Shown one piece after another: positions 47,869 to 63,130 of a stretch of 64,000 bases of DNA. Where the stretch lies: positions 1,791,501 through 1,855,500 of the forward strand of contig NZ_CP009048.1 of assembly GCF_000746525.1 (NCBI RefSeq), in the 5' to 3' direction. Position 1 is the stretch's first letter; each line of letters opens with the position of its first letter. A model generated the notes under the pieces. The model made no database searches. It saw only the letters and a program-made list of their open reading frames with translations, and had not been told where the DNA came from. Made by a program: the position numbers and the translations under genes. The stretch is from Pseudomonas alkylphenolica (GTDB lineage: Bacteria; Pseudomonadota; Gammaproteobacteria; Pseudomonadales; Pseudomonadaceae).

Positions 47869-48879
47869 CTAGCGACCCTGAAGCAGTTCGCCGGCCTGAT
47901 CGAGCAGGGCCAGCGGATCCTTGCTCTTGTGAATGTCCACCGAGAGCAACTGACGGAACTTGCGCGCCCCCGGGAAGCCCTGGCCGAGGCCGAGGATGTG
48001 GCGGGTGACGTGATGCATGGCGCCGCCGTCAGCCAGGTGTGCGGCGATATAAGGGCGCAGCTTGGCCAGTGCTTCACTGCGGCTGATCACCGGCGCCTGG
48101 CTGCCGAACAATTGCTGGTCGACCTCGGCCAGCACATAGGGGTTGTGGTACGCCTCGCGTCCGAGCATCACGCCGTCGAACGTCTGCAGGTGTTCCTGGC
48201 ACTCGGCCAGGGTCTTGATGCCACCGTTGAGGATGATCTCCAGCTCCGGGAAATCCGCCTTCAATTGCGCTGCTACGTCGTAACGCAGGGGTGGAATCTC
48301 GCGGTTCTCCTTCGGCGACAAACCTTCAAGGATCGCAATGCGTGCATGCACGGTAAAACTGCGGCAGCCGGCATCACGCACCTGGCCGACAAAATCGCAC
48401 AGCTCGGCGTAGCTGTCGCGGCCATTGATGCCGATACGGTGTTTGACCGTCACCGGGATCTGCACCGCATCCTGCATCGCTTTGACACAATCACCGACCA
48501 GTGCCGGATGGCCCATCAGGCAGGCGCCGATCATGTTGTTCTGCACCCGGTCGCTCGGGCAGCCAACGTTGAGATTGACCTCATCGTAGCCGGCGCCCTG
48601 GGCCAGCTTTGCGCAAGCGGCGAGATCCGCCGGCACGCTGCCGCCCAGTTGCAAGGCAAGCGGATGCTCGGCTTCGTCATGACGCAGGAAGCGCTCGGCG
48701 TCGCCATGCAGGAGGGCGCCGGTAGTGACCATTTCGGTGTAGAGCAGGGCGTTGCTGGAAAGGAGGCGTAGGAAGAAGCGGCAATGGCGATCAGTCCAAT
48801 CCATCATCGGCGCAACAGAAAACCTCCTAACTACCGGATTCATTGGGTTTACTAGGTTTTCTGTGTGTTTCGGGTGCAT
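47869..48879 (-). CDS. dusA: tRNA-dihydrouridine(20/20a) synthase DusA, 5' end formed by prophage
   Basis: A 336-residue flavoprotein. It opens with SVAPMMDWTDRHCRFFLR, the FMN-binding start of DusA, and has the catalytic Cys in NVGCPSDRVQNN and the KHRIGI segment. It reduces uridine 20/20a of tRNA. The first 17 residues (before RRFSVAPM) differ from normal DusA and are probably supplied by the prophage; an ATG at 48843 is an alternative start. dusA is a known integration site, and the gene remains intact after insertion. Confidence 0.92.
   Translation of the reverse strand: MHPKHTENLVNPMNPVVRRFSVAPMMDWTDRHCRFFLRLLSSNALLYTEMVTTGALLHGDAERFLRHDEAEHPLALQLGGSVPADLAACAKLAQGAGYDEVNLNVGCPSDRVQNNMIGACLMGHPALVGDCVKAMQDAVQIPVTVKHRIGINGRDSYAELCDFVGQVRDAGCRSFTVHARIAILEGLSPKENREIPPLRYDVAAQLKADFPELEIILNGGIKTLAECQEHLQTFDGVMLGREAYHNPYVLAEVDQQLFGSQAPVISRSEALAKLRPYIAAHLADGGAMHHVTRHILGLGQGFPGARKFRQLLSVDIHKSKDPLALLDQAGELLQGR
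48780..48845. other. Inferred prophage left attachment site in dusA
   Basis: The boundary between chromosomal dusA and prophage must lie near the codons for SVAPMMDWTDRH, because this is where the gene stops looking phage-specific and becomes standard. DusA-associated integrases are known to recombine in this 5' part of the gene. The right end (attR) is outside the window, so the core sequence cannot be delimited. Confidence 0.5.
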
Positions 48880-48936
48880 TTCAATTCTCTTGTTTACTAC
48901 CTTTTCCCACCATTTTTGCTTATTTGCTTTACCTCG

Positions 48937-48953
48937 TTGCTACAATGTAGCAA
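48937..48953. promoter_or_regulatory. Palindrome upstream of the integrase
   Basis: TTGCTAC-AAT-GTAGCAA is a perfect 7+3+7 palindrome 26 nt upstream of the integrase start. It contains TACAAT, a possible -10 element, so it may be an operator over the int promoter. Another GTAGCAA lies 14 nt downstream. Confidence 0.5.
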
Positions 48954-48979
48954 CTCAAATCAGCCGTGTAGCAAAATTC

Positions 48980-50122
48980 ATGGGATCCATCACACTCAGA
49001 AAGCGCAAGGACGGCTCTGCCGCGTATACCGCGCAGATCCGAATTATGAAGAAGGGTGAGACAGTCTATCAGGAAAGTCAGACCTTCGATCGCAAGACCA
49101 CCGCTCAGGCATGGATCAGAAAGCGCGAGGCTGAGTTGCATGAGCCGGGCGCGATTGAGAAGGCCAATCGAGACGGCGTGACGGTCAGGGAGATGATTGA
49201 GCGGTACCTTGACCAGTACGAGAAGCTCAGACCGCTGGGTAAGACTAAGCGCGCGACTCTGAATGCCATCAAGGAAACGTGGCTTGGTGACATCGTTGAC
49301 ACGGACCTGACCAGCCAGAAGCTGGTGGAATACGCCCTGGGCCGGATGGAGAAAGACGGTATTCAGGCGCAGACCGTGGGCAATGACCTGGCTCACCTCG
49401 GCGCCGTGCTATCTGTGGCCCGACCAGCCTGGGGCTATGACGTCGACCCGAACGCGATGCCTGACGCACGGAAGGTGCTGCGCAAGATGGGAGCGGTTAG
49501 CAAGAGCCGCGAGCGCAACCGTCGACCAACGCTCGACGAGCTGGATCGAATCCTGAAGTACTTCGCCGAGATGCGCGACCGTCGAAAGCAAGAGATAGAT
49601 ATGGTCCGGGTGGTGGTCTTCGCGCTGTTCTCCACGCGCCGCCAGGAAGAAATCACGCGGATACGCTGGGATGCGCTCAATGACAAAGAGCAGTCGGCTT
49701 TGATCACCGACATGAAAAACCCGGGCCAGAAGCACGGCAACGACGTGTGGTGCCACATGCCCGACGAGGCCTGGAACATCATGCAGTCCATGCCGAAAGT
49801 CGCAGCTGAGGCCTTCCCGTACAACTCACGATCAGTGTCGGCAGCATTCACTAGGGCGTGTAACTTCCTCGAAATTGATGACCTGCACTTTCACGACCTC
49901 CGCCACGATGGCGTCAGCCGGCTATTCGAAATGGGGTGGGATATCCCGAAGGTGGCCTCTGTTTCCGGTCACCGGGATTGGAACTCGATGAGGCGCTATA
50001 CGCACCTGCGGGGGAATGGCGATCCATATAAAGGGTGGGAGTGGATCGAGAAGGTGATATCGGGCCCCGTAATCGAGGCCCAGAGGAGGATCAAGAGACG
50101 CGTCGAAGACCGCGACCCATGA
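48980..50122 (+). CDS. int: Tyrosine integrase of the dusA prophage
   Basis: A 380-residue site-specific recombinase. The N-terminal arm-binding part starts GSITLRKRKDGSAAYTAQI, followed by a SAM-like core-binding domain. The C-terminal catalytic residues are Arg220 (FALFSTRRQEEI), His305-x-x-Arg308 (HDLRHDG), His331 (SGHRDWN) and nucleophile Tyr340 (RRYTHL). The ATG at 48980 is chosen since the open frame further upstream reads through dusA. Its 3' end overlaps the convergent PrtN-like gene by 32 nt. Confidence 0.93.
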   Translation: MGSITLRKRKDGSAAYTAQIRIMKKGETVYQESQTFDRKTTAQAWIRKREAELHEPGAIEKANRDGVTVREMIERYLDQYEKLRPLGKTKRATLNAIKETWLGDIVDTDLTSQKLVEYALGRMEKDGIQAQTVGNDLAHLGAVLSVARPAWGYDVDPNAMPDARKVLRKMGAVSKSRERNRRPTLDELDRILKYFAEMRDRRKQEIDMVRVVVFALFSTRRQEEITRIRWDALNDKEQSALITDMKNPGQKHGNDVWCHMPDEAWNIMQSMPKVAAEAFPYNSRSVSAAFTRACNFLEIDDLHFHDLRHDGVSRLFEMGWDIPKVASVSGHRDWNSMRRYTHLRGNGDPYKGWEWIEKVISGPVIEAQRRIKRRVEDRDP

Positions 50123-53394: not shown

Positions 53395-54549
53395 CTATCG
53401 TTTCGGGTAGGTCTGCGTCAGCGCGCCGTTGACCACATGCCCGCGGCGCAACACCAGCTTGGCAAGCTCCGCCCGGTCCTTCTGGCTGTGGCTGGCCTGG
53501 GTGAGCAGGCCGAAGTAGCTGTTGGCGGTCTCGCGGAGCTGCTCGGCTGGCGCTGCAGCGGCGCGCTTCATGGCCTGGGCCACTGACCGCTTCCGAGTTG
53601 TGCGCCGCCACGGCTTGATCACATGTCCGACGAAGTCAACGCCCCGGTCAATCGGCTGCAGGATGGTCTTCTTCGGGTTTAGTCGGGCGCCGAGCTTCGG
53701 CAGGAAGGCTTCGATCTCGGCCTTCCAGGCGTTCAGTTGCTGCGACGATTCATGCAGCAGCACGAAGTCGTCGACATAGCGCACGTAGTGTTTGACCCCG
53801 AGCCGGTGCTTGCAGAACTGGTCGAGGGCGTCGAGGTAGACATTGGCGAAGAACTGCGACGACAGGTTGCCGATCGGCAGTCCCAGGTGCGCAGGCTGCG
53901 CGGTCAGGCGCTTGTGCTGCGGCACCCGGTTGAACAGGTGCGCCGGGCTGCGGATCTGGTAGTTCTCGCGGGGATCATGCATCAGCAGCTGCAGGCCCAG
54001 GGCCTGCCACCATGGCTCAGCGAGCCTGGCCGACAACTGGCTGGCCAGCACGCGCTTGTCGATGGCGACGAAGAAGTTGGCCAGGTCGCACTTCAGGTAG
54101 AAGGCAGGCTTCGACCAGTTTTGCGTCTGGCTGCGGATCTTCGCCTCAAGGCGCTTTGCGGCGTACAGCGTGCCGCGCTCTCGGATACAGGCGCAACTGT
54201 CCGCTATGAAGCTGCGCTCGATGCCGGGGCCGATGTGGTTGTACAGCAGGTGGTGCACGATGCGGTCGCGGAAGTCGGCGGCCCACACCTCGCGGGGCTT
54301 GGGCCGGGTGACCACGAAGCAGATAGAGCGGCCTGGCCGGTATTGGCCGGTGACTAGGTCGCGATGGAGCGCCGTCAGGTTCTGCTCCAGAGCCATTTCG
54401 AAAGCCAGCGCGCTGGCGCTGTTGCGTTTGGAGCGCCGGCAGTCGTAATAAGCTTGGACCAGATCGCTGAACGGGTAGGGCGTTGAAGCTGCGGACGGGG
54501 CGGACGCGGAGCTCGTTGTTCTTGTCGTTGTTGTTCTGATTGCCATCAT
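53395..54549 (-). CDS. DGR reverse transcriptase
   Basis: A 384-residue reverse transcriptase of diversity-generating retroelements. The N-terminal part DLVQAYYDCRRSKRNSASA and the catalytic motifs are present: motif A YLKCDLANFF (Asp155), motif C YVRYVDDFVLL (YVDD at 258-261), and the DGR-specific motif 4 LPIGNLSSQ (226-232, with SQ in place of QG). It makes mutagenised cDNA of TR. The first in-frame start after a stop codon is an ATG ATG inside TR, so its first ~20 residues are encoded by the template repeat. Leftward partner of avd. Confidence 0.93.
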   Translation of the reverse strand: MMAIRTTTTRTTSSASAPSAASTPYPFSDLVQAYYDCRRSKRNSASALAFEMALEQNLTALHRDLVTGQYRPGRSICFVVTRPKPREVWAADFRDRIVHHLLYNHIGPGIERSFIADSCACIRERGTLYAAKRLEAKIRSQTQNWSKPAFYLKCDLANFFVAIDKRVLASQLSARLAEPWWQALGLQLLMHDPRENYQIRSPAHLFNRVPQHKRLTAQPAHLGLPIGNLSSQFFANVYLDALDQFCKHRLGVKHYVRYVDDFVLLHESSQQLNAWKAEIEAFLPKLGARLNPKKTILQPIDRGVDFVGHVIKPWRRTTRKRSVAQAMKRAAAAPAEQLRETANSYFGLLTQASHSQKDRAELAKLVLRRGHVVNGALTQTYPKR

Positions 54550-54589
54550 CGAAGTTCATGTTGAATGCGTTGTTGGCGGAGCGCTGCGA
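54489..54589 (-). repeat. DGR template repeat (TR)
   Basis: A 101-nt template. On the minus strand it runs from TCGCAGCGCTCCGCC through many AAC codons to CCGTCCGCAG. It contains 31 adenines, most in AAC codons. VR2 (101 nt) and VR1 (103 nt) match it apart from substitutions at adenines and a 2-nt insertion. Its last 26 nt (GAGCTCCGCG... to CGCAG) are identical in all three copies. There is no promoter or hairpin after its 3' end. The reverse transcriptase start lies inside it. Confidence 0.95.
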
Positions 54590-54751
54590 CCTGTCGTGCT
54601 ATCTACGTCGGCCCGCCGAATCTTCAGCGAGCAAACTGCGCTGGACCTACACGGACGCTTTAGACCGGCGGTATCCAGGGTGCGCATGGCGGTGACCAAA
54701 GGTCAGCGGCACGACCAGGTTCAATTCGCACAGACCAGAAAGCCGTAACTC

Positions 54752-55108
54752 TCAGGTAGCGGGCGCGGTTGGGGTGGAGCGTTTCCAGGCGTTGGCCTGC
54801 TTGCCGATAGAAGTGGTGATCTCCATCGTTTTGGCGTGCTGCGGCACGCTGATGAATCGACTTTCCTTGAACAGCCGCATCAGGAATTCGATCACCTGGA
54901 CCTTCTCGACCAGTCGTGTCAGGTGCGGGCGCTTGTCCTGCGTGGCATTGGCCCGGGCGATGAGCATCAGCACATCGATGCATTCATCGATAACCCGCTT
55001 GCCGAGTGATTGCTTCAGGTCGCGCGGAATGTTCCGAGTCAGGTTCGTGGCCATTTGCAGCAGGCCAAGCGAAGACTTGTAGATCGATAGATCGGTGTGC
55101 ATTGCCAC
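54752..55108 (-). CDS. avd: DGR accessory variability determinant (Avd)
   Basis: A 118-residue basic four-helix protein: YKSSLGLLQMATNLTRNIPRDLKQSLG, CIDVLMLIARANATQ, LVEKVQVIEFLMRLFKES, and a C-terminal GKQANAWKRS. This fits the bAvd fold, which forms a pentameric barrel that binds nucleic acid and the reverse transcriptase. Its place between target gene 1 and TR is the canonical one. The GTG at 55108 has AAGGAGG upstream; an ATG at 55102 is an alternative. Confidence 0.9.
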   Translation of the reverse strand: MAMHTDLSIYKSSLGLLQMATNLTRNIPRDLKQSLGKRVIDECIDVLMLIARANATQDKRPHLTRLVEKVQVIEFLMRLFKESRFISVPQHAKTMEITTSIGKQANAWKRSTPTAPAT

Positions 55109-55779
55109 AACAGTGCTCCTCCTTGAGCAACCGGCCGCGAGCGGCCGGATTGAATAAGCGAATTAATCGATAAGCGACCTGCGGACGGGGCGGACGCGGA
55201 GCTCGTCGCCCTCTTGCCGAGGTCGTCCTGATAGCCATCACCGAAGTACAAGTAGAATGCGCTGCCGGCGGAGCGCTGCGAAGATGACCAGTACCAGCGC
55301 GCCTGGAAGGCTTCAGGTTCGCCCTCGGCAAAGCCCGGCACCTGGGTCTTGGCTGGCGACTCTTCGGTATACAGCAGGCCCACCGGCAGGCTGTTGGGGT
55401 TGTCGCCGTCACGGTTCCAGCAGTAGTTCTCACGGCTGGTCGGCTTGAAGTGGCGGTACTGCAGCTCCTGCACGTCGCGGGCTGGGATTGCCCAGTCAGT
55501 GAAGCCGCCGACTTCCAGGGCCAGAACCTGCTGTGCCAGCTCGCTGCCGGACGCGGCCATGGCCTCCGTGTTGGCGCGGCTATCGGTGAAGCTGTCGGCG
55601 CCGTCGATCTTGACGCCGCATTCACCCCACTCACCGACCAGCTCATGCTCGGCACCGGCGGTGATGTTGGCGTAGCGCTGACCGTTCTCGACGGTGATGC
55701 CGGAGAAGAAGCCGCCACCGAAGGGCTCGCCGATCTCGGGAAACTGAATTGCAGGTGCCACTTTCTCTACTGCGCTCAT
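55039..55779 (-). CDS. DGR target gene 1 (frameshifted in VR1)
   Basis: As it stands this frame encodes 246 residues. Residues 1-170 fit the DUF1566/C-type-lectin-like fold of DGR targets (FGGGFFSGITVENGQRYANI, GGFTDWAIPARDVQELQ, WYWSSSQRS). VR1 starts at codon 167 (Ser). After residue 189, a 2-nt GG insertion shifts the frame, so the usual ending ELRVRPVRR is lost and a random tail runs to 55039, over the avd start. Without the insertion it would end at 55163 (204 residues). AAAGGAG precedes the ATG. Most likely a phage-encoded adhesin or ligand-binding protein. Confidence 0.85.
   Translation of the reverse strand: MSAVEKVAPAIQFPEIGEPFGGGFFSGITVENGQRYANITAGAEHELVGEWGECGVKIDGADSFTDSRANTEAMAASGSELAQQVLALEVGGFTDWAIPARDVQELQYRHFKPTSRENYCWNRDGDNPNSLPVGLLYTEESPAKTQVPGFAEGEPEAFQARWYWSSSQRSAGSAFYLYFGDGYQDDLGKRATSSASAPSAGRLSINSLIQSGRSRPVAQGGALLWQCTPIYRSTSLRLACCKWPRT
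55131..55148. other. Hairpin/cruciform after VR1
   Basis: CCGGCCGC-GA-GCGGCCGG is a perfect 8-bp inverted repeat with a 2-nt loop (or seven pairs with a CGAG tetraloop). It lies 30 nt beyond the 3' end of VR1. DGRs are known to need such hairpin/cruciform structures downstream of VR for efficient homing. Confidence 0.75.
55179..55281 (-). repeat. DGR variable repeat VR1
   Basis: A 103-nt copy of TR at the end of target gene 1. Compared with TR it has 15 substitutions, all at TR adenines, and a GG insertion in the codon corresponding to the TR AAC that follows AAG. The 26-nt 3' end is identical to TR. Confidence 0.95.
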
Positions 55780-55809
55780 GTGTTGCTCCTTTCTGAAGGC
55801 AACAAAAAA

Positions 55810-55828
55810 GGCGCTGATGCGCCCCTGT
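55810..55828 (-). terminator. Hairpin/terminator after VR2 between the two targets
   Basis: The stem GGCGC-ATCA-GCGCC (55810-55823), followed by TTTTTTGTT on the minus strand, is a rho-independent terminator. It lies 35 nt beyond VR2, so it may also be the structure that directs homing. Confidence 0.75.
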
Positions 55829-55844
55829 TCGAATGAATGAAGGA

Positions 55845-56450
55845 TTAAATGAATAACCTGCGGACGGGGCGGACGCGGAGCTCGCTGTACTTGACGATGC
55901 TGTCCTGAAAGCCAGCAACGAAGGTCATGAAGAACGCGCCGTAGGCGGAGCGCTGCGAACTCGACCAGTAGTAGCAGTCCTGGGCGAACACCTCAGGGCA
56001 GTTCACCCAGCCCTGGCAGAGCTCGGCTGCTGCGGGCAGATAGAAGTCATGGTGACCATCAGCCTGGTGCTCGGCGCAGGCATTGGCGGCCGGGTGTTCG
56101 GTTTCTTCGTTACACAGCCATTCGGTATTGGCCTTGCCGTCGGTCTTGCTGGTCGCCTTCGACTCTTCCCGGTAGCCGCCCCAGGCGCGGTCGCCGATGT
56201 CCTTGGCGGCGATGATCAGGTAGTGCTCCGGCACGTCTCCGCGAGCAGCAACCAGGCCGGCGTTGATGCCACCCTGGCCCGGCCATGGCTGGCCGACAGC
56301 AGGGATGCCAGTCTGAACAATCGGCTGAACATTGGCCGCTGGCGGCAGCGCCTGAGCAAACACGCTGGCGATTGCCAGCTTCGCCAAGGATGCTGACGGC
56401 ATTTTGATCGTGGTGTCACCGTGCTTCAGGGTGATCATTTCTGGTTTCAT
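55845..56450 (-). CDS. DGR target gene 2 (in frame)
   Basis: A 201-residue protein. Residues 1-160 include an acidic, Ala-rich N terminus and a YLPAAAELCQGWVNCPEVF segment typical of the C-type-lectin/FGE-like fold. The C terminus is YWSSSQRS then the variable residues and ELRVRPVRR, the classic ending of DGR targets. Variable codons are residues 170-189. No signal peptide is seen. It has AGGAACAATC upstream. It and target 1 share the same architecture but differ in the N-terminal part, so they are likely two separate displayed ligand binders. Confidence 0.9.
   Translation of the reverse strand: MKPEMITLKHGDTTIKMPSASLAKLAIASVFAQALPPAANVQPIVQTGIPAVGQPWPGQGGINAGLVAARGDVPEHYLIIAAKDIGDRAWGGYREESKATSKTDGKANTEWLCNEETEHPAANACAEHQADGHHDFYLPAAAELCQGWVNCPEVFAQDCYYWSSSQRSAYGAFFMTFVAGFQDSIVKYSELRVRPVRRLFI
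55858..55958 (-). repeat. DGR variable repeat VR2
   Basis: A 101-nt copy of TR at the 3' end of target gene 2. It differs from TR by 17 substitutions, all at TR adenines, with no other change. The frame matches TR and the protein ends ELRVRPVRRLFI. Confidence 0.97.
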
Positions 56451-58147: not shown

Positions 58148-58163
58148 GATTAATCCTCGGGGT

Positions 58164-58238
58164 GGCTGCATTGGTCGTGACACTCGCTGCCGTTGCCTCC
58201 CGGACCAGGGGAGGGCGAGCGTCACGACCGATGCAGCC
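58164..58238. other. Long imperfect hairpin in the leader
   Basis: Two 24-nt arms (58164-58187, 58215-58238), with two mismatches, enclose a 27-nt loop that itself can pair (CCTCCC/GGGAGG). On the minus strand this RNA lies just upstream of the first leftward gene. Confidence 0.7.
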
Positions 58239-58554
58239 TGGTGATGGGGAGTACCAGGTGATCGGGCTGGAGTCCTATGGCAAATCCAGCAATGCCCCAA
58301 CTTCGTCTCAAGTTGGCAGAAGTGATGCAGGGGGCCGCTTGTGCGGTGTGTACTCGTCCGCATCCCAAAGCGCCCGGGAGGCCAGGCGCTTCAGTGATGC
58401 TTTCTTCTCTCCGACCGCGACCCTGGTCCGCCGGATAACTAATTTCGCGCTTTACGCTGCACGCCTGGGTCAGTTGCCAACCCTCTGAACAGTTGAGGCC
58501 TGTCCATCGCTGCCTTTGTTGCTGGCCGGTGGTGATCCGGCGACGAGACAAATC

Positions 58555-58675: not shown

Positions 58676-59398
58676 TCAAGAGAAAATTGTAGATGCCTGA
58701 AAAACTCGACCGATGATGTTCACTGCCGACACGTCAGCCACCTCATCTTCGTACTCATCCCGGTTGAACGACCTGATCCTAAGCTTCCCTCCGGCCAGCC
58801 GGTAGAGGATTTTCACCCTCAACATTTCTTCGTAGAAGATGCCGTACATCTTGCCGTCAACAACGGTAGTGGCGCCTGTATCAACGGCAACAGTAGAGCC
58901 GTCAGCAAGTAGCGGCTCCATGCTGTTGCCCTTCACGGGCATGCAAATGACGTTACTTGGCTGTACGCCTAAACGCATGAGGGTGTACTTACCAAATCGC
59001 AACTTTGCTCGGCTGTGACTATCGACACTAAAGCGTCCCGAGCCGGCAGATAGCTCTACTTCCTTTAGAAACGGCACTTCAATCTCATCTTCATCAAGAG
59101 GGGTGCTGTCATCCCACATGCTGATCGGGCGCATGTCCGGATGCGTCAGCTTTGCCGGGTCGGTTTCGCTCTCGCAGGGCTGGCTTCCTGGCGGTTGCCC
59201 AGGGCCTACCAGTAGCTCTTGAACAGAAACCCCCAGAATTTTTGACAGTTCAGTGAGCCTGTTGCCCCGAGGGCTTGCTTTACCAGACTCCCAGCCTTGT
59301 ACAGCCTGAGGGGATACCCCTATGGCTCTGGCCAGCTCGGATTGATTCAAGCCTTTCTTTTCGCGGGCTTGCGCGATTCTTTGAGGAAGAGTGCTCAT
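58676..59398 (-). CDS. LexA-like prophage repressor (CI type)
   Basis: A 240-residue repressor. The N-terminal helix-turn-helix is LNQSELARAIGVSPQAVQGWESGKASP. The C-terminal S24 domain has Ser159 (VKGNSMEP) and Lys196 (RVKILYR), with a likely cleavage site Ala-Gly at 118-119, so RecA-dependent induction is expected. It starts at the ATG at 59398, where no ribosome site is seen; a -10 TATATT (59405-59410) lies 6 nt upstream, so the mRNA is probably leaderless, as with lambda cI. Confidence 0.92.
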   Translation of the reverse strand: MSTLPQRIAQAREKKGLNQSELARAIGVSPQAVQGWESGKASPRGNRLTELSKILGVSVQELLVGPGQPPGSQPCESETDPAKLTHPDMRPISMWDDSTPLDEDEIEVPFLKEVELSAGSGRFSVDSHSRAKLRFGKYTLMRLGVQPSNVICMPVKGNSMEPLLADGSTVAVDTGATTVVDGKMYGIFYEEMLRVKILYRLAGGKLRIRSFNRDEYEDEVADVSAVNIIGRVFQASTIFS

Positions 59399-59404
59399 GC
59401 GCCA

Positions 59405-59410
59405 AATATA
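59405..59410 (-). promoter_or_regulatory. Repressor promoter -10 (PRM-like)
   Basis: TATATT on the minus strand, 6 nt before the repressor ATG, with no good -35. The first right operator (59409-59425) covers it. A weak promoter near OR is typical of PRM. Confidence 0.55.
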
Positions 59411-59483
59411 CAACCTGTTGTTGTAGGTATCACTGCAATATGTGCTTGTAGATTTAAAGCTGCACTTGTAATCTCTGCTTGTA
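59409..59483. promoter_or_regulatory. Right operators OR (four sites)
   Basis: Four sites fit T-A/G-CAA-N7-TTGTA in full or in part: TACAA-CCTGTTG-TTGTA (59409-59425), TGCAA-TATGTGC-TTGTA (59434-59450), TTAAA-GCTGCAC-TTGTA (59454-59470, weaker) and TGTAA-TCTCTGC-TTGTA (59467-59483, weaker). The spacing between centres is 25, 20 and 13 bp. Confidence 0.7.
59446..59474 (+). promoter_or_regulatory. Predicted rightward promoter PR
   Basis: -35 TTGTAG (59446-59451) and -10 TAATCT (59469-59474), spaced 17 nt, overlapping the right operators and leading to the Cro-like gene. Confidence 0.65.
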
Positions 59484-59503
59484 AAAACCAGCAGAGACCC
59501 ATC

Positions 59504-59716
59504 ATGACTACCAGCGCAATCATCGAGGCATGCACAAAGGCCGGAGGGCAGTCGGCGCTCTCGCGGGCCATTGGGTGCACGCCCCAGGCAGTTCAGCGCA
59601 TGTGTGCAACTGGGCGAGTCCCAGCTGAGCGCGTCCTTCAAATCGAGAAGGTAACGGGGGTGTCGAGGCATAAATTGCGGCCCGACCTCTATCCGAACGG
59701 CATCGAAGTCGCCTGA
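59504..59716 (+). CDS. Cro/YdaS-type regulator
   Basis: A 70-residue protein with a helix-turn-helix typical of the YdaS/Cro family: AGGQSALSRAIGCTPQAVQRM, then PAERVLQIEKVTGVSRHKLRPDLYP. Divergent from the repressor, it probably competes for the same operators and sets lytic development. The ATG at 59504 begins just after the weak sites; the frame upstream to 59297 is antisense to the repressor. Confidence 0.85.
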   Translation: MTTSAIIEACTKAGGQSALSRAIGCTPQAVQRMCATGRVPAERVLQIEKVTGVSRHKLRPDLYPNGIEVA

Positions 59717-62705: not shown

Positions 62706-63130
62706 AAGCCAAGCCCCGTGTTTTTGCCGCGAAGAAGACCCGCGCCAAGCCAATCGACCGTGAAGGCCTGGAGCAGGCCGCCCTGATGACCGAGATTGCG
62801 CTGCGCTATCCGGCTGCAGCCAAACTGATCTACCACGTCCCGAACGGTGGCCACCGGCACAAGCTGGTGGCGATCAAGCTGAAAGAGCAGGGCGTGAAAG
62901 CCGGTGTTCCTGACTTGGTGCTGCCGATGGCGCGTGGTGGTCACTTCGGCCTCTACATCGAGTTCAAGGCTAAGCCTCCGTTCGACGCCGCCGTATCACC
63001 GAGCCAGGACGCCTACATTCAGGCGCTGCTCGATCAGGGTTATCTGGCGATCGTCTGCCGTGGCGCCATCGATGCGCTGGAGGCGATTCGCGCTTACTTG
63101 CTGCAGCCGCAGACCGAGGTGGTCGCATGA
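62699..63130 (+). CDS. VRR-NUC domain nuclease
   Basis: A 143-residue VRR-NUC protein. The motifs are YHVPNGGHRHKLVAIKLKEQG, GVPDLVLP and YIEFKAK, which hold the D...E-x-K nuclease core. Such phage proteins act as structure-specific nucleases (Holliday-junction-like). It overlaps the YbcO gene by 7 nt and the recombinase gene by ATGA. Confidence 0.85.
   Translation: MLKAKPRVFAAKKTRAKPIDREGLEQAALMTEIALRYPAAAKLIYHVPNGGHRHKLVAIKLKEQGVKAGVPDLVLPMARGGHFGLYIEFKAKPPFDAAVSPSQDAYIQALLDQGYLAIVCRGAIDALEAIRAYLLQPQTEVVA

Follow-up and report, generated by a model that had tools for sequence, protein, structure and literature searches.

Several variable repeats (VRs) have been reported in 271 of 948 diversity-generating retroelements (DGRs), and Pseudomonas is among the genera more likely to have such elements (PMC6642488; this and the other papers are cited here from excerpts). 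In Pseudomonas fluorescens WH6, two VRs reside in diverged target genes (PMC3521204), which is also the arrangement found in a 64,000-nucleotide (nt) stretch of the Pseudomonas alkylphenolica genome (RefSeq assembly GCF_000746525.1, contig NZ_CP009048.1, positions 1,791,501 to 1,855,500; hereafter, the window, in which positions are counted from the first letter). The window locus is a phage DGR in which one template repeat (TR) serves two targets; very probably it belongs to a beta- and gammaproteobacterial family whose members, for the most part, vary two dissimilar lectin-fold proteins, and works as proposed below. The WH6 DGR may well belong to the same branch. The excerpt of PMC3521204, where the lack of a strict order is read as the spatial arrangement being irrelevant, mentions neither a structured RNA nor a rule by which each type supplies one target, unlike what is described here for this branch; likewise, target pairs are typed here but not in the excerpt of PMC6642488.

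The DGR of phage BPP-1 (NC_005357) resembles that of the window in the order avd, TR, reverse transcriptase (RT), in the adenine-specific differences between TR and VR, in the presence of Avd, in the kinship of the RT, and in the inverted repeat that follows the VR. In BPP-1, avd abuts the TR, and the 144-nt gap between TR and the RT gene brt holds the RNA RF03022, whereas in the window the RNA known as RT-15 occupies the gap between avd and TR, and the TR overlaps the RT open reading frame (ORF). The BPP-1 target, Mtd, sits with the tail genes, whereas the window targets are located in the repressor region of a prophage; the window targets have a lectin fold, as does Mtd. In BPP-1, enzyme recruitment and the priming of cDNA synthesis are functions of the spacer between TR and RT (PMC12875486).

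Seven phages, namely SC_8_H2H8_2017, Cruim01, Haboob, phPA-G, LPPA56, Magia, and vB_Sb_QDWS, share the layout of the window, all seven having two VRs upstream and RT-15 before the TR, with RT identity to the window of 65.7-80.6%; the second VR is nearer in Magia and QDWS (about 1235 nt) than in the other five (about 1480-1525 nt). The window locus can be considered a new member of the two-target DGRs, and the combination of a 5' leader with a steady target pair looks like a variant of the DGR kind.

Template-directed variation and gene content

The relationship between the TR and the two VRs carries the identification of the element. All 15 substitutions in VR1 fall on template adenine (A) and are accompanied by a 2-nt insertion, and among the 19 differences between VR2 and the TR, 17 are at template A and two near the outer ends of the alignment. 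Relatives of the locus were collected in two sets. The first set consists of 42 loci, that is, the window, 34 of the 35 genome stretches (one, L072, was dropped from the TR/VR counts because its RT lacks the 5' part), and seven phage stretches; the second comprises 159 further loci, namely the 80 best of a scan of named genomes and the 80 best of a scan of IMG/VR, less contig L161. The two sets overlap, some genomes being present under other names, so that the counts are not additive. In the first set, with 86 VRs, A was substituted at 1195 of the 2706 aligned positions and non-A at 34 of 6132; in the second set, with 307 VRs, the respective counts were 4196 of 9591 and 97 of 21944. Thus, TR and VR differ almost only at template A, more so than chance would give. 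A search of the entire 5.76 Mb genome with the TR (E 0.001) produced the TR, VR1, and VR2 only, and no remote VRs.

The RT translation carries GNLSSQ and YVDD, which correspond to motif 4 with the DGR-type SQ and to the YxDD motif, respectively. The best match of the RT among solved structures was the reverse transcriptase 8ub7 (E 3.1e-34), presumably the BPP-1 DGR enzyme, followed by a group II maturase (E 7.9e-11), and among phage protein families the RT matched PHROG 1423 (9.6e-112). Avd passed the threshold of Pfam bAvd (45.8 bits, cut-off 40) and scored below that of NCBIfam Avd (50.2, cut-off 80); a sequence search of avd against solved structures yielded only weak matches to designed and unrelated proteins. 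The locus encodes a DGR-type RT and Avd.

These searches bear out the original prediction, made from the letters alone, of a DGR whose single TR serves two target genes and of an RT with YVDD and the DGR-type SQ; each of the parts that it listed was recovered in its place (Table 1). The minus-strand transcription order at 53395-56450 is target 2, target 1, avd, TR, RT. The predicted "canonical order" holds for the genes; it does not hold for the RNA, given that the spacer between TR and RT domain is near nil and that the TR has the structured RNA on its avd side.

Table 1. Features of the DGR locus and its surroundings (positions in the window)
Feature	Position	Strand	Basis
Target 2 ORF (W type, motif WPGQGG; 201 aa), with VR2 at the end of its C-terminal lectin-like domain	55845..56450	-	
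VR2	55855..55961	-	Repeat alignment to TR
Hairpin and T tail 3' of VR2; terminator-like, also in the position of a DGR target hairpin	55807..55826	-	Terminator scan
Target 1 ORF, G type, 246 aa; frame broken within VR1	55039..55779	-	ORF list, TR/VR alignment
VR1, 2 nt longer than TR	55179..55281	-	Repeat alignment to TR
GC-rich inverted repeat, 8 bp, 30 nt past VR1	55131..55148	-	Stem search
avd	54752..55108	-	Pfam bAvd 9.7e-12; PHROG Avd 7.8e-30
RT-15 RNA (RF03018), structured leader in the avd-TR interval	54587..54768	-	Rfam, 162 bits, E 1.3e-39
TR; 3' half within the RT reading frame	54486..54592	-	Repeat alignment, genome search
Reverse transcriptase ORF, in-frame ATG inside TR	53395..54549	-	Motifs GNLSSQ, YVDD
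dusA, integration site	47872..48879	-	NCBIfam DusA, 526 bits
att repeat within dusA 5' end (30 nt, 1 mismatch, 23 nt)	48799..48852	.	Direct-repeat search
Prophage tyrosine integrase ORF	48752..50122	+	Phage_integrase 3.9e-16
CI-like repressor, on the DGR strand, upstream of the DGR	58676..59671	-	phrog_4 3e-50; Peptidase_S24 4.7e-18

RT-15 RNA and the layout of the template transcript

RT-15 bridges the stretch between avd and the TR, with its first nucleotides within the 3' end of avd and its last 6 nt within the start of the TR, and matches all 192 positions of the Rfam covariance model at nearly twice the curated cut-off of 82 bits. In three batches of further loci, RT-15 was found in 11 of 12, 8 of 10, and 18 of 18; it was missed in L072 and in two phages, Aurca01 and D14O, neither of which is among the nine phage records (H1-H9) with a close RT, defined by at least 60% identity. 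A close RT (E 1e-60 or better) is present in 31 of 398 genomes of the genus, at 36 places, and RT-15 exceeds its cut-off at 35 places, which are distributed over 30 of these 31 genomes and occur in no other; each of the 35 adjoins an RT by coordinates. The single RT place without RT-15 is in genome G193 and corresponds to L072, where the first 50 residues are missing from the RT match and neither a TR nor a VR nor RT-15 was found. Matches of RT-15 below the cut-off were obtained in G077, G200, and G212. Across 29 loci including the window, tested on the Rfam structure, changes on both sides were observed in 25 of 53 pairs, compared with 12.1 after shuffling, and the covariation score was 0.267, compared with 0.112 for shuffled alignments and at most 0.077 when the structure was slid; helix 7 is poorly kept (62.2% paired). 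RT-15 and its covariation are thus features of this DGR branch. The RF03018 entry, under the name RT-15, describes it as an sRNA only, without a tie to DGRs, and we found no such tie for this branch among the open-licence papers listed.

In the window, RT-15 fills the 159 nt between avd and TR, and the TR ends no more than 10 nt from the RT domain. In the 154 second-set loci with a VR, this distance is between -1 and 29 nt, and in all 154 the RT frame continues without a stop past the TR end and at least 20 nt into the TR. An in-frame ATG is present within the TR in 143 of these loci, and none occurs between the TR and the RT domain in 152; in the remaining 11 loci, which lack an ATG in the TR, the frame continues without a stop upstream of the TR, and all 11 carry an ATG 192-240 nt ahead of the domain; in the six of them that were searched with Rfam (L133, L138, L140, L146, L148, L150), this ATG is inside RT-15. 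In the first set, 36 of 37 loci have the ATG in the TR (four phage loci are outside this count), the exception being Haboob (L039). Because the in-frame ATG is in the TR and none follows it before the RT domain in nearly all loci, the start codon used for the RT in the window is most likely located in the TR.

Ten other DGR phages, BPP-1 included, served as controls. In nine of them, avd and TR are separated by -2 to 34 nt, and TR and RT by 135 to 320 nt (to the annotated RT start for BPP-1, to the start of the RT match for the others); an Rfam search detected RT-15 in none of the ten. Bacteroides phage F2 (L247) resembles the window, with 128 nt between avd and TR and 51 nt from the TR to the RT match; it has no Rfam match and perhaps carries an uncatalogued 5' leader RNA. 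Rfam Phage_DGR maps just behind the TR in BPP-1 (L241, 2750-2882), and RT-14 does so in BalMu-1 (L242, 3295-3438); several RT-n families may be parts of DGR template RNAs.

A structured TR-RT spacer of the BPP-1 type was not found in the window branch, the 5' end of the RT gene displaying neither robust structure nor excess synonymous constraint. A spacer hidden inside the RT gene was considered and rejected: synonymous identity is 0.567 over the first 20 codons, against 0.536 overall and 0.395-0.658 in 20-codon blocks. With the spacer behind the TR near-absent, it is likely, by analogy, that RT-15 takes over its job on the 5' side, that is, recruitment and perhaps priming. An alternative is that RT-15 is only an attenuator or a translational control of the RT mRNA and has no part in cDNA synthesis, which would be primed from a short or distant element. 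Such a role would suit the position of RT-15 just upstream of the RT start, on the sense strand, and the overlap of the TR with the RT frame; however, RT-15 abuts the TR, is found over the cut-off only beside this RT in the 398 genomes, and has counterparts that also abut the TR, on its other side, in RF03022 of BPP-1 and RT-14 of BalMu-1, so that we consider a purely regulatory role improbable.

Target pairs and the VR1 frameshift

Two VRs were identified in 38 of the 42 first-set loci, three in three, and one in one; in the second set, the counts are 139 loci with two VRs, seven with three, eight with one, and five with none. Of the five without VRs, four have fewer than 740 bases before the RT domain, and in the fifth, L123, the RT match starts from residue 50. 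Given these counts, two targets are the normal state in this branch, and the two VRs are not special to the window. Most of the named hosts are Pseudomonas; Paraburkholderia, Janthinobacterium, Massilia, and further members of the beta- and gammaproteobacteria also occur, as does one bin with the label Verrucomicrobiaceae. The targets fall into two types, W and G, and one protein of each type, in either order, is encoded in 121 of the 139 two-target loci, with the order changed at least seven times on the RT tree. The typing relies on profiles built from 26 (W) and 22 (G) rows, which replaced regular expressions that left many targets untyped; the rows were chosen by eye mostly from the same loci, and such rows therefore type themselves.

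Several loci depart from the two-VR pattern. L042, L046, and L071 have a third VR 3-5 kb upstream of the RT, and L048 has a single displaced VR even though RT, TR, and RT-15 are present. The 18.9 kb stretch of phage Aurca01 (L075) contains three VRs and no RT-15, and no close RT was found in the record. Compared with the TR of phage Cruim01, which has the same recorded host, P. syringae CC1557, the three Aurca01 VRs show 14, 14, and 16 changes at A and 0 at non-A over 104, 104, and 98 nt; either Aurca01 lost its RT lately or its VRs are diversified in trans by the other phage. Phage vB_PaeS-D14O (L076) has a VR-like stretch, with no RT-15 in 10.6 kb and no close RT in its record.

The targets are C-type-lectin-fold proteins with a C-terminal VR. 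Their scores against Lcl_C/DUF1566 (PF07603), 20.5 and 22.1 bits, do not reach the gathering threshold of 34.9; the fold is alike. A sequence search of target 2 against solved structures gave no match at E 1, and the matches of the targets in a viral structure library include DUF1566 proteins, a tail fibre protein, and others. Since these matches are of mixed kinds, the fold alone leaves the role of the targets undecided; they may be accessory particle parts, surface or exclusion proteins of the lysogen, or something else.

A GC-rich inverted repeat follows the VR in the window, with an 8-bp stem after VR1; in BPP-1, a hairpin after the VR is required (PMC3240598). In the first set, a perfect stem of at least 6 pairs was detected within 90 nt after 54 of the 86 VRs, compared with 41 of 430 shuffled sequences and 35 of 252 random places, and 45 of the 54 stems sit at 24-35 nt. 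The stem after VR2 was missed by the stem script and was listed in the terminator scan, which reported seven terminator-like sites in 4.7 kb (shuffles: mean 3.9, sd 2.2). A sigma-70 promoter scan found none, with 0.8 expected.

In this assembly, target 1 is frameshifted and target 2 is intact. Owing to the 2-nt insertion in VR1, target 1 loses its reading frame ahead of the tail that is conserved at the C-terminus of the lectin-like domain (RVRPVR in 16 of 17 aligned relatives, LVRPVR in the other one), and the ORF is extended to 246 aa, with a 70-nt overlap with the avd ORF. The prediction that both target genes end in C-type-lectin-like domains therefore holds for target 2 and fails for target 1 as sequenced. 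In the first set, only VR1 of the window has a gap whose length is not divisible by three; 3-nt insertions occur in two other VRs, and the VR of L048 also failed the scripted frame test, because of a short upstream frame. In the second set, 10 of the 307 VRs have gaps, and seven of these were inspected: four break the target frame (L081, L139, L143, L149), two stay in frame (L142, L215), and L231 is not frame-breaking; the gap is in an AAC-rich tract in six of the seven and at the matching place in L231. In the other three, L083, L168, and L238, the gap length is divisible by three. The stretch taken as the TR in L231 seems to carry mutated A positions, out of step with its in-frame VR. Slips within AAC repeats have been cited before and modelled as multiples of three (PMC12875486).

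Because frame-breaking gaps recur in the VRs of further loci, in an A-rich tract, the slips look like a cost of the DGR machine rather than a special device. The two extra bases, and with them the loss of frame in target 1, most likely date from the most recent copying into VR1 of the window, and, by the known mechanism, a later copying event could replace this allele. A programmed frameshift in target 1 was rejected: no other VR1 in the first set has such a gap, and among the inspected gapped VRs of the second set only L081 and L143 have one in the same place.

Alternatively, the frameshift might be a sequencing or assembly error, with target 1 actually intact. Only one assembly is available, contig L161 possibly representing the same data, and the singularity of the gap among the 86 first-set VRs would fit an error; conversely, the extra bases fall in the A-rich mutated tract, and the recurrence of gaps in the second set, four of the seven inspected breaking the frame and six located in the AAC-rich tract, makes an error rather unlikely. 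Still another reading is that of a decaying DGR, once active and now losing its targets, of which the frameshift would be the first sign. Relatives with missing parts are compatible with such a course: the truncated RT match in L072/G193, the one displaced VR of L048, and phages Aurca01 and D14O, which keep VRs. Yet, in the window, RT, avd, RT-15, TR, and target 2 are all intact, and frame-breaking gaps in four of 307 further VRs, in the A-rich tract, are what would be expected of slips in working elements; decay of the window DGR thus appears quite doubtful. Virtually no weight can be given to an RT of group II intron or retron type without a DGR, given that the best NCBIfam match, group_II_RT_mat at 89.5 bits, is far under the cut-off of 300, that 8ub7 ranks first among solved structures, that a TR/VR pair and Avd are present, and that the A-specific TR/VR changes already refute it.

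Proposed working and prophage context

In the working that we propose for this DGR, a transcript spanning avd, RT-15, TR, and RT would fold at RT-15, and the folded transcript would bind Avd and the RT. The bound transcript would be copied into cDNA with errors at A, and the cDNA would replace VR1 or VR2, guided by the GC-rich 3' ends and the hairpin after each VR. Present activity of the window DGR is putative, as are the role of RT-15, the priming site, and the binding partners of the lectin-like domains.

Several observations weigh against this reading. Target 1 is frameshifted, and an identical contig, L161 from IMG/VR, may be the same assembly as the window; it was tried as an independent second isolate and, being identical over 7980 nt, provides no proof of activity. 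The GRNA loops of other phage DGRs (in the excerpt of PMC3240598) were not found at the window hairpins, whose loops are CTCG (or TC) and ATCA. A folding signal over the initial 180 nt of the RT gene (z -3.5, with a double change in one pair) failed when windows of 120 nt were used (z -0.4 and -2.5, against -2.6 elsewhere in the RT); these tests leave out L072 and seven near-copies. Finally, the RT frame is open back across the TR in five of the ten control phages (BPP-1, phiARM81mr, VP58.5, ACA1, Lagaffe), so that this feature alone is not special. Overlap of TR and RT has already been catalogued, as group 3 (PMC3521204), and is neither new nor unique; what sets the branch apart is the near-absent spacer together with the RNA on the 5' side.

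Tentatively, the branch might be characterized by a permuted template RNA, in which the recruiting, perhaps self-priming, fold is RT-15, 5' of the TR, and the TR is the 5' coding end of the RT gene; the DGR would be kept to diversify a two-part receptor, whose two dissimilar lectin subunits would be produced early or during lysogeny and would not be tail fibres. A branch nearly without the spacer, with RT-15 in step with the RT at 35 of 36 places, makes a recruiting fold on the other side of the template testable, and priming too. That two unlike targets are so steadily paired, and lie outside the tail region, suggests a binding function of two subunits that differs from that of the usual tail tip.

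The predicted dusA prophage was confirmed: a direct repeat in the dusA 5' end flanks an integrase-led phage, and its second copy recurs 40.6 kb downstream, beyond the window, which gives a prophage of about 40.6 kb. Between the repeats are genes for the integrase, the CI-like repressor, terminase, portal, major head protein, a relative of tail fibre J, and other tail proteins. Integrases at a single site in the dusA 5' end have been described in more than 200 bacteria (PMC4482086). The DGR is on the repressor strand, downstream of the repressor and about 25 kb from the tail fibre J gene, which places the targets outside the tail cluster. A second tyrosine-integrase-like gene lies inside the prophage, from position 63127 to beyond the end of the window (L034, 4127-5428). 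Near the regulator genes on the repressor side, at 58153-58249, there is a long imperfect inverted repeat with a sub-threshold microRNA match (30.5 bits, threshold 75).

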